Positions 23,409 to 27,803 of a stretch of DNA of 32,429 nt are shown here, one piece after another. This DNA comes from Candidatus Cellulosilyticum pullistercoris (GTDB lineage Bacteria; Bacillota; Clostridia; Lachnospirales; Cellulosilyticaceae). The stretch lies in contig JAHLFQ010000024.1 in assembly GCA_018883705.1 (NCBI GenBank), positions 1 to 32,429 of the forward strand, read 5' to 3'. Numbering within the stretch: position 1 is the first letter of the stretch; every line of letters starts with the position of its first letter. The translations under genes were made by a program, and so were the position numbers. A model generated the notes under the pieces. It did no database searches. It saw nothing but the letters and a program-made list of their open reading frames with translations, and was not told where the DNA came from.

Positions 23409-23498
23409 TGTATCATCTCCTCTAGCTTAATATAATAACTGTATTTTTATATTCAATCTACATAAAAAGCTTTCATTTTATTAATAAATTTCCATCAA

Positions 23499-23538
23499 AA
23501 AATTCCTAATGAGATAGGCTCACTCATTAGGAATTTTT
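23499..23538 (-). terminator. Rho-independent terminator of clpB
   Basis: aattcctaatgag-ataggct-cactcattaggaatt stem-loop directly after the clpB stop. Confidence 0.8.
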
Positions 23539-23541
23539 ATT

Positions 23542-26145
23542 CTAGCTTTCTACATTGATGACTAGGCCTTGCTCATTATAATCTACAACAAAGGTAGAAA
23601 ATGGATTAACTTCTTGTGCAATCAGTGTTCTGGCAATCAGTGTTTCCACCTTGCGTTGCAAAAACCTTCTAAGTGGTCTGGCACCAAAAACAGGATCAAA
23701 TCCTTGTTCTGCAATGTAGGATTTAGCTCTCTCTGTAAGTTTAACATAAAGTTGTTTACCTTCTAGACGTTTATTCAAATCTTTTTCAAGTAATGTAACA
23801 ATCTGAATGATTTCATGCTTTTGTAGTGGTTTATAAAGTACAATTTCATCTAATCGATTTAAAAACTCAGGTCTAAAATGCGTTTTTAGAGTTTGGTTAA
23901 CGGCTTCTTCTACTTCCTCATTGATTTCTCCATTTTCATTAATCCCTTCAAGAATAAGTTGTGAGCCTATATTAGAAGTTAAAATGATAATCGTATTTTT
24001 AAAATCAACTGTACGTCCTTTAGAATCTGTAACACGACCATCGTCTAATACTTGAAGTAGTACATTAAACACATCTGGATGCGCCTTTTCTACCTCATCA
24101 AATAAAATAACAGCATAAGGTTTTCTTCTAACTGCTTCTGTTAGTTGTCCACCTTCTTCATAACCGATATAACCCGGAGGTGCTCCAATAAGTCTTGCTA
24201 CAGAATGCTTCTCCATATATTCACTCATATCAATACGAATCATACTATGCTCATCATCAAATAATGACTCTGCAAGTGCTTTAGCAAGTTCTGTTTTTCC
24301 AACTCCTGTTGGCCCTAGGAATAAGAAAGAACCAATTGGCCTTCGTGGGTCTTTAATACCTGCACGTGAACGTAAAATAGCATCTGTTACTGTATTAACT
24401 GCTTCATTTTGACCAATCACACGTTTGTGCAAAATTTCTTCTAAACGAAGTAACTTATGACGTTCACCTTCCATAAGTTTTGTGATTGGAATTTGTGTCC
24501 ATCTAGAAATAATCTTTGCAATCTCTTCTTCATTAACTTTATCTCTAAGTAGTGTATGTTCACCACTAGATTGTGCTTTAATCTCTGCAGCTTCAAGTTT
24601 CTTTTTAAGTTCAGGTATCACACCATATTTTAATTCTGCTGCCTTATTATAATCATACTCACGTTCTGCTTTTTGCATATTAGCTGTTTGATTTTCTATT
24701 TCTTCTTTGATACTACGTACAGCTGTAATTGCTTCTTTTTCATTTTCCCATTGCATTTTCATTGCTTTAAATCGATCACGAAGTTCTGCTAACTCTTTTT
24801 GCGTTTCTACTAAATTTTGTTTTGAAATGGGATCTTCTTCTTTTTTTAGTGCTGTCTCTGCAATTTCAAGTTGAAGCATTTTTCGCGAAATCTCATCTAA
24901 TTCTACTGGCATAGAATCAATCTCTGTTCTTAAAAGTGCACAAGCCTCATCTACTAAATCAATCGCTTTATCAGGAAGGAAACGATCAGAAATATAACGA
25001 TCGGATAAAGTAGCTGCAGCAATAAGCGCGTTATCTTGAATTTGTACACCATGATAAATTTCATAGCGCTCCTTAATACCACGTAAAATAGCAATCGTAT
25101 CTTCTACTGTAGGTTCTTCTACCATAACAGGTTGAAAACGTCTCGCTAAAGCAGCATCAGATTCAATATATTGTCTGTACTCATTCAGTGTGGTTGCACC
25201 AATACAGTGAAGTTCTCCACGTGCAAGCATAGGTTTTAGTAAATTTCCTGCATCCATTGATCCTTCTGTCTTACCAGCTCCTACAATGGTATGAAGTTCA
25301 TCAATAAAGAGAATAATTTTCCCCTCACTCTTCTTTATCTCTTGAAGGACAGCTTTAAGCCTTTCTTCAAATTCACCTCTGTATTTAGCACCAGCTATAA
25401 GTGACCCCATATCTAATGAGAAAATTCGCCTATCTTTTAAAGTCTCTGGTACATCGCCTCTTACAATACGTTGGGCAAGGCCTTCAGCAATCGCTGTTTT
25501 ACCGACACCTGGCTCACCAATCAAGACAGGATTGTTTTTTGTTTTTCTTGATAAAATACGAATCACATTACGTATTTCACTATCACGACCTATAACAGGG
25601 TCTATCTTGTGCTCTCTTGCTCTCTCTACTAAGTCATAACCGTATTTATTAAGCACATCATAAGTGCTTTCTGGCTCCTCGCTTGTAACATGCATGTCTC
25701 CTCGTATTTCTTTAACAACGTCCATAAAAACTTTTTTATTAACGGCAAAGGCTGATAAAATCTTACTTAATTCTCCTGATGCTGTTTCAATAAGTGCGAG
25801 CATTAAATGTTCTACTGAAACATATTCATCTTTCATTCTTTTTGCAAGATCTTCACTTTTATTAAGTGCTTTTTCTGTCTCGCTTGAAACATAAACTTTA
25901 TCTAACTCTCTACCAGGTCCGCTTACTTTAGAAAGTTTACTAATAGCATCACCCACAGACTGTGTGATAGCACTTACATTAACATTCATCTTTGTTAGAA
26001 CCTGTGGAATAAGTCCTTGTTCTTGTGTAAGTAGTGCATATACTAAATGTAGTGGCTCAATTTGATTATTTTGATAGCTTATTGCCATTTGCTGTGCTCT
26101 TTGGATTGCTTCAATAGATCGTTTTGTATAATTTTGTCCATTCAT
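23542..26145 (-). CDS. clpB: ATP-dependent chaperone ClpB
   Basis: 867 aa; two AAA+ modules ([34 protein letters not shown]), coiled-coil middle domain, [25 protein letters not shown]. Confidence 0.98.
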
Positions 26146-26179
26146 GTTATTTCCTCCTTTATTTTATCTATTTTGTAAC

Positions 26180-26818
26180 TTATATCAGGTGATGCATTTT
26201 TTTATAATGCTCCCTTAAAAGATTATATTGATTCTTTTCATTTTCTAAAGATCCAAAATATAGTTTTAAGCCATCATCTAATCCTTTGATATAAGTAGAT
26301 AGCGCACTGGCTAAATCAGTACTTTGATGGGGTTTTTGAAAAAGTTCTAATCTTAAGGTGCGAAGCCATTTAGAACCCTCTTCTTGTTCCCATAAAGTAG
26401 GGCTCATTTCATTTTCTATATGTTCCCACAACCGAAAGAACTCATTCAAATAGAAATAGAGTATGTCGCTTTGTGTACGAGAAATGACTCTAAGTTGACC
26501 TGTTAGATGGCCTTCTTGTTGTCCTAAATAAACACAATAACGAATTGTTGGATTATATTTGTATCTTAATGCACTTTTCACGCTATACATATGATCAGCT
26601 GCTTGATTTTGAATTTGAAAATGTGCATAGGGTTTTAGATAATCTGATAAACTTTGAAATATCTTTTGTAAATACTGTTCAGGTGTTGTTAGTGATACCT
26701 TCTCAGCCAATATTTGATTAATTAAGTTAGAACGACTGGTATGAAGAGAATAAGCTAATTCATCTATTGCTTCTACTACATCATCCATTAAAACTAAGCT
26801 ATAAACACTCTTTTTCAT
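26180..26818 (-). CDS. Uncharacterised protein with ribbon-helix-helix-like N-terminus; probable regulator co-transcribed with clpB
   Basis: 212 aa; N-terminal KKSVYSLVLMDDVVEAIDELAYSLHTSRSNLINQILAE matches the RHH pattern (strand + helix + 'tSRSNLINQIL' helix). About 165 aa C-terminal part of unknown function. 34 bp gap to clpB with no terminator. Confidence 0.7.
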   Translation of the reverse strand: MKKSVYSLVLMDDVVEAIDELAYSLHTSRSNLINQILAEKVSLTTPEQYLQKIFQSLSDYLKPYAHFQIQNQAADHMYSVKSALRYKYNPTIRYCVYLGQQEGHLTGQLRVISRTQSDILYFYLNEFFRLWEHIENEMSPTLWEQEEGSKWLRTLRLELFQKPHQSTDLASALSTYIKGLDDGLKLYFGSLENEKNQYNLLREHYKKMHHLI

Positions 26819-26835
26819 AGCCTCACCTCACTTCT

Positions 26836-26870
26836 AATAATAGAATATCCCTATTCTATTATTTTGTCAA
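26836..26870 (-). promoter_or_regulatory. Promoter TTGACA-N17-TATTCT with overlapping 12-bp perfect inverted repeat (candidate operator)
   Basis: Minus strand: -35 TTGACA (26870-26865), 17-nt spacer, -10 TATTCT (26847-26842). IR aataatagaata-tccc-tattctattatt at 26836-26863 covers the -10 and most of the spacer. Confidence 0.75.
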
Positions 26871-26996
26871 CGTAATTATATAATCATTTAATCAAATTAT
26901 ATGGTTTATTTATCTAATTATCTTCATGAAACACAAGTTATATTTTCTTAGGTTGTGGTTACACTAAATATATTATTTATAAAAGGATGGATACTT

Positions 26997-27803
26997 ATGA
27001 ACACAAAAACTACCATTTTTCTAAGGAAAGGATTGAGCTATTTTATAGCTTTTGTTTTTCTATTTAATCTGTGTACAGTCTCATGTATGGCTGAAACTCA
27101 TGATCTTGATACGACAAAGACTGATTGGTGGCTCGTACGATCCAAAAACCACGAACTACCAGGCTTTAATACGAAATTAGGCTATAAACTAGAAGATTAT
27201 GGAGGGTGCTGCTTAGGTGACACCTCAAAAAAAGTAGTTTATCTGACTTTTGATGAAGGATATGAAAACGGGTATACAGCTAAAATTTTAGACGTATTAA
27301 AATCCCAGGATGTTAAAGCCATGTTTTTTGTGACCTTACCTTATATAGAAAAAAATGAAGATCTTATCAAAAGAATGCATGAAGAAGGACACTTCGTTTG
27401 TAATCATACGAATCATCATTTATCGATGCCAACACTTGTCGGAAATGAGAGCAAGTTCAATAACGAAATTACTAGTGTTTCAGAGGCTTATCAAAAAATC
27501 ACAGGAAGCCAAATGCCCCCTTTCTTTAGGCCGCCTATGGGGCATTATTCTCAAAAATCACTAGCCATGACTAAAGCCTTAGGATACCGTACTGTCTTTT
27601 GGAGTTTTGCTTACTGTGATTGGAAGCCTAATGCACAACCTGTTCCTGCTGAAGCTAAGAAATTAATGTTAGATGGTCTTCATAATGGAGCCATTTACCT
27701 ACTTCATGCTGTTTCCAAAACGAATACAGAAGTGCTTGGTGATTTTATTACAGAAGCTAGAAATATGGGATATACTTTCGAACTACTGCCTACTCAATCA
27801 TAA
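26997..27803 (+). CDS. pdaA: PdaA-like polysaccharide deacetylase (delta-lactam-biosynthetic de-N-acetylase)
   Basis: NodB-fold motifs YLTFDEGYENGYT, HTNHH, FFRPPMG, AIYLLHAVS; signal peptide. Track ORF starts at 26955, but ATG at 26997 (MNTKTTIFLRKG) follows an aaaaggatgg RBS. Confidence 0.9.
   Translation: MNTKTTIFLRKGLSYFIAFVFLFNLCTVSCMAETHDLDTTKTDWWLVRSKNHELPGFNTKLGYKLEDYGGCCLGDTSKKVVYLTFDEGYENGYTAKILDVLKSQDVKAMFFVTLPYIEKNEDLIKRMHEEGHFVCNHTNHHLSMPTLVGNESKFNNEITSVSEAYQKITGSQMPPFFRPPMGHYSQKSLAMTKALGYRTVFWSFAYCDWKPNAQPVPAEAKKLMLDGLHNGAIYLLHAVSKTNTEVLGDFITEARNMGYTFELLPTQS

Follow-up and report, generated by a model that had tools for sequence, protein, structure and literature searches.

An RHH protein encoded ahead of clpB in gut Clostridia: a candidate chaperone-gene repressor and its proposed 42-bp operator

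In a 32,429-nucleotide stretch of DNA from Candidatus Cellulosilyticum pullistercoris (henceforth the window; it forms contig C232 of a genome that is 85% complete) a gene for a protein with an RHH-type head precedes clpB, and the promoter ahead of the pair carries a 42-bp dyad that recurs in relatives with the same two genes. We consider it likely that the product of this gene is a chaperone-gene repressor that acts at the dyad on its own gene and on clpB, and in relatives also in trans, and that heat or unfolded protein would lift the repression. The operon, the operator, the co-occurrence of regulator and operator and the targets in trans are all supported by comparison across genomes. No CtsR was found in the order to which the window belongs, and nothing that we found assigns a clpB regulator in these gut Clostridia; the conserved pair of regulator and operator is a concrete candidate, and the 42-bp motif could be used for regulon annotation.

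The RHH gene and clpB are conserved as a pair

The minus strand of the window carries, in this order, a TTGACA-N17-TATTCT promoter, the RHH gene, a gap of 34 nt, clpB and a terminator-like hairpin (Table 1). Promoter and genes lie where the original prediction had put them, and in keeping with it no terminator-like site was found between the RHH gene and clpB. The closest named relatives, among the best 80 of 418 matches, belong to Cellulosilyticum.

Table 1. Features of the RHH-clpB locus in the window (strand - denotes the minus strand)
Feature	Coordinates	Strand	Remarks
RHH gene (putative regulator), 212 aa	26180..26818	-	RHH head, ~residues 1-43, and C-terminal domain of unknown family
clpB, 867 aa	23542..26145	-	34 nt downstream of RHH gene; TIGR03346 1334.6 bits vs cut-off 1232.1
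42-bp dyad, proposed operator	26859..26900	-	ATAATTTG-N9-TTATATAA-N9-CAAAATAA, 22/24 consensus positions
Dyad left box ATAATTTG	26893..26900	-	
Dyad central box TTATATAA	26876..26883	-	dyad centre
Dyad right box CAAAATAA	26859..26866	-	consensus CAARTTAT; overlaps -35
-35 hexamer TTGACA	26865..26870	-	
-10 hexamer TATTCT	26842..26847	-	putative, by consensus match
28-bp perfect inverted repeat	26836..26863	n/a	not kept in relatives
Terminator-like hairpin and T-run past clpB	23497..23538	-	operon end

Relatives of the RHH protein are encoded in 418 stretches of GTDB genomes, and the 80 best of these were retained. In all 77 named loci among those 80 that include enough DNA, clpB lies downstream on the same strand, within ~210 nt in 74 of them and beyond other genes in three. 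In one genome (G036) the RHH gene is followed first by a J-domain protein and then by clpB; at two loci (L053 and L071) the RHH gene and clpB are separated by a gene of ~435 aa whose product has cysteine pairs suggestive of zinc ribbons, as well as hydrophobic stretches. The apparent end of an RHH gene was also seen immediately ahead of clpB at the edge of a contig (G012). Across 96 genomes of the window's order the RHH gene is present in 18 of the 38 that are ClpB-positive and in none of the 57 that are ClpB-negative, a count that omits one genome (G004) in which clpB is cut by the contig end. The corresponding Fisher value of 3e-9 treats species as independent, and values of this kind overstate certainty because neither species nor lineages are independent. 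Gene order and co-occurrence point to a single operon, in which the RHH protein probably controls clpB.

A 42-bp dyad is the conserved promoter element

Upstream regions of the RHH gene, aligned on TTGACA, share a 42-bp element of the form ATAAYTTG-N9-TTATATAA-N9-CAARTTAT, the right end of which overlaps the -35 hexamer. It is common to ~80 species ahead of the RHH gene, which in nearly all of them precedes clpB, and 82 of 90 distinct promoters score at least 17/24 against it. Across the aligned promoters the TTGACA and the central TTATATAA hardly vary, and the left box is clearly conserved despite having no promoter role. Positions equidistant from the centre are complementary, with a symmetry at the dyad centre of 0.64 in 43 non-redundant promoters compared with 0.34 +/- 0.05 over all centres (~5.6 SD above). 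The promoter of most relatives is TTGACA-N17-TAYAAT and thus near consensus; taking the start as inferred from the -10, the dyad spans roughly -65 to -24. In the window itself the right box is degenerate relative to the consensus. On this comparative evidence it is the dyad, and not the 28-bp inverted repeat to which the original prediction had assigned the role, that is supported as the proposed operator, and we correct the assignment here.

Dyads at chaperone genes in trans

In three genomes (G062, G081 and G091) the RHH gene is detached from clpB, and the dyad is found on the clpB promoter itself; that of G091 matches at 23/24 positions, and those of the other two have a left spacer of 8 nt. 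Scanning 392 Clostridia with a profile trained solely on RHH-clpB promoters (R1) placed all of the top 15 hits at RHH-clpB promoters, and nothing else in these genomes matches as well, a result that is partly circular because close relatives are in the training set. Hits with E<0.01 occur in 24 of the 29 RHH carriers vs 59 of the 363 other genomes.

Weaker hits of R1 were read in 39 genomes, nearly all of them RHH carriers, and most look like chance. Several lie at the hrcA promoter, in G033, G052 and G082 of one family and in G272 and G472 of another, with a CIRCE site ~30 nt beyond the dyad hit in the first three and in G272. Two are at hsp20, one of them with CIRCE beside it (G008, E 3e-7) and the other in G466, while a third hsp20 dyad, in G036, came from a pattern search and stands directly before the ribosome-binding site. 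The hit at groESL in G462 is weak (E 0.195). About 30 R1 hits with E<=0.06 lie outside RHH and clpB promoters, and eight of these, G092 included, are at hrcA or hsp20; if up to 1% of promoters belong to such genes the binomial value is 5e-10, for a list that was counted by hand, in which unannotated hits were scored as misses and members of the same family are not independent. Within the window's own genome R1 gave no second target at E<=0.3, and a first half-operator pattern did no better there than its control. Judged by sequence, candidate operators thus lie at the promoter of the RHH gene itself and, in trans, at chaperone genes, and the regulon would be wider than originally envisaged, taking in clpB in trans, hsp20 and hrcA.

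Two further sites deserve mention. Upstream of hrcA-grpE in G092 (L148) there is a good dyad-like site together with CIRCE, and no RHH gene was found in that genome; the assembly may lack the gene, or the hrcA site may be a relic. A weak dyad-like hit before an apparent Fur/PerR-type gene (L235, G324:C40) may be due to chance.

The distribution of these sites bears on whether the dyad is an operator of the RHH protein at all. Its AT-richness and its overlap with a consensus -35 might be expected of a promoter feature (an UP-like element with an extended -35), and it could also be the site of another regulator, the RHH protein being a mere neighbour. We regard both versions as unlikely: the element has dyad symmetry, hits with E<0.01 are concentrated in RHH carriers, and the dyad is found at clpB in genomes with a detached RHH gene, whereas clpB in relatives that lack this gene has CIRCE or neither element; in addition, the hsp20 dyad of G036 is not upstream of a -35.

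Proposed repression and its possible release

We infer that the RHH protein binds the dyad directly and that it represses rather than activates. Its RHH head is carried on a large C-terminal domain, and multimers of it would bind the dyad, cover the -35 hexamer and repress both the RHH gene and clpB. Given the overlap between the dyad and the -35 of a near-consensus promoter, protein bound there should obstruct RNA polymerase, and since the regulator is the first gene of its own operon it would be autoregulated. In relatives clpB would be a target in trans of the same protein; some lineages would add hsp20 and hrcA-grpE to its targets, sometimes with CIRCE alongside. The idea of an RHH autorepressor coupled to ClpB, put forward in the original prediction together with a mistaken operator, gains good comparative support from the operon, from the conserved promoter dyad and from the dyad at clpB in trans.

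The dyad could conceivably serve activation of clpB instead, as its span may include class II activator positions, but a promoter of TTGACA-N17-TAYAAT type should need no activator. The hsp20 site of G036 moreover lies downstream of any likely promoter core, and with its place immediately ahead of the ribosome-binding site it is easier to reconcile with a block than with activation. An activator is accordingly improbable in our judgement.

Release of the repressor would be brought about by heat or unfolded protein, either via the C-terminal domain or by titration of a supporting chaperone. In the HrcA-GroE and HspR-DnaK systems the chaperone supports the repressor and is titrated by unfolded protein (PMC6032397), and by analogy something similar could release the RHH protein. 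In this way ClpB expression may be coupled to misfolding stress.

The 28-bp inverted repeat

The inverted repeat that drew attention to this promoter is as originally described: its arms (26836-26847 and 26852-26863) pair at 12/12 positions with 4 nt between them, and it overlies the -10 and most of the spacer of the minus-strand promoter. The pattern occurs once in the window, with 0 occurrences expected by shuffling. When the 136-bp intergenic region is resampled under a Markov model, ~0.2% of the copies contain a perfect 12-bp repeat with a loop of 0-10; such perfect repeats are present at about six distinct places in the whole window, some of which are terminators. The repeat is real and somewhat unusual, uncommon though not unique.

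Both the placement of perfect arms across the -10 and spacer and their rarity by chance in this region would suit an operator, whether for the RHH protein or for some other repressor. Comparison with relatives makes this very doubtful. Placed on the -35 in the same register, the arms form at most 7/12 pairs (mean ~4) in 84 other promoters of the RHH gene, and even inside the genus five other members have 2 to 7 of 12 pairs, while the neighbouring dyad, which the repeat overlaps only at the dyad's right end, is conserved across families. We reject the repeat as the operator because relatives that have the RHH-clpB pair do not conserve it, the outcome that the original prediction had itself named as refuting it, while they do keep the adjoining upstream dyad; nothing in these relatives suggests a function for the repeat. 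An RNA hairpin is likewise unlikely by position, as a start placed ~7 nt past the -10 would leave nearly the whole repeat untranscribed.

An RHH head and a C-terminal domain without a family match

The RHH_1 model matches 55 of 68 family members over the first ~40 residues, the best at 1.9e-5. The match of the window protein (E 0.0032, 17.8 bits) is below the Pfam gathering score of 20.5, and the family profile aligns to CopG residues 6-37 with an E-value of 0.053. On these sequence matches the family is assigned an RHH (CopG-like) domain. The protein was modelled as a monomer. Its C-terminal part is predicted, at high confidence (pLDDT 94, pTM 0.90), to consist of a helix, four strands, a helix, two strands and two helices. 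Searches of Pfam and NCBIfam gave no family for this domain, and no fold in the PDB matched it at E<0.001. A secretion-chaperone-like fold was considered, the order of elements being suggestive and ExsC and 2plg appearing among the matches (E>0.07); membership is unsupported because the TM-scores are at most 0.44.

That the protein is an orphan RHH-type antitoxin is highly improbable, for although its RHH part weakly resembles antitoxin models, none scores over its cut-off, the protein is far longer than these models (70-72 positions) and its constant neighbour is clpB, with no toxin gene. A search for defence systems gave no match.

NikR combines an RHH head with a C-terminal domain and has a long dyad operator. 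The RHH protein resembles it in its domain order and its long dyad, and it differs from NikR-type regulators in a C-terminal domain that lacks a family or fold match and in the three boxes within 42 bp. The C-terminal domain may be a new stress sensor.

Relation to known heat-shock repressors

HspR is a MerR-type protein. In the HspR/HAIR system of Streptomyces and Helicobacter a heat-shock repressor acts from within a chaperone operon, and also in trans and beside HrcA (PMC6032397); in H. pylori HspR overlaps both the -35 and the -10 of its own operon (PMC6032397). By its gene order the RHH gene would similarly lie inside a chaperone operon, with dyads in trans that are sometimes beside CIRCE. 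It departs from HspR in its RHH DNA-binding head and in its operator sequence, and no MerR family is among the Pfam matches of the 68 RHH-family members.

CtsR represses clp genes in Firmicutes (PMC3472708). The RHH protein, like CtsR, is a proposed clp-gene repressor; unlike CtsR it has neither a CtsR domain nor heptad pairs. The CtsR winged-helix domain (PF05848) is absent from the Pfam matches of the 68 members, the single match to the CtsR C-terminal model is below its cut-off, and the tandem heptad RGTCAAA-N3-RGTCAAA was found neither in RHH-clpB promoters nor in the intergenic stretches scanned. No CtsR came up in any of the 96 genomes from the window's order. Its model evidently works in the class, as it matches in 272 of the 392 Clostridia; it gave no match in the B. 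subtilis control. CtsR is present in 4 of the 29 RHH carriers vs 268 of the 363 others, an association confounded by phylogeny.

With HrcA/CIRCE the RHH protein shares the proposed repression of chaperone genes, and in some RHH-lacking relatives it is CIRCE that is found at clpB. The two differ in that the RHH-clpB promoters are free of CIRCE (TTAGCACTC-N9-GAGTGCTAA, none within 4 mismatches) and that the same genome has a separate HrcA, encoded, as are two CIRCE sites, on other contigs. At the window promoter neither a CtsR nor a CIRCE site is present, as first reported: in 26101-27000 no CIRCE was found within 6 mismatches, and the one CtsR-like match is at the allowed maximum of 4 mismatches. 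Control of the window clpB by either was set aside for want of such sites.

Our search of the open-access literature, with subscription journals outside its scope, turned up no earlier account of clpB being regulated by an RHH protein; this argues weakly for novelty. If the proposal is true, an RHH family would join the known heat-shock repressors HrcA, CtsR and HspR. Only tentatively would we go further and suggest a separate repressor family, common among gut Clostridia. Its C-terminal domain would itself sense unfolded protein or the occupancy of ClpB, and the regulon that it sets, in places together with HrcA, would be one of disaggregation, made up of clpB, hsp20 and the DnaK operon.

Among the 19 ClpB-positive relatives that lack the RHH gene, CIRCE is found at clpB in 11, and neither dyad nor CIRCE in eight. 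With CIRCE in some of these relatives and the dyad in carriers, lineages appear to use different clpB regulators. The clpB upstream regions of G009, G010, G011, G015, G061 and G090 (L153-L155, L157, L163 and L171) have neither element. In G027 and G080 (L158 and L168), whose clpB promoters likewise lack dyad and CIRCE, there is a long inverted repeat at the promoter, GACATTATGTTTTTGTGT ... ACACAAAAACATAATGTC; its left arm overlaps the -35 TTGACA, and it may serve a further clpB regulator as operator.
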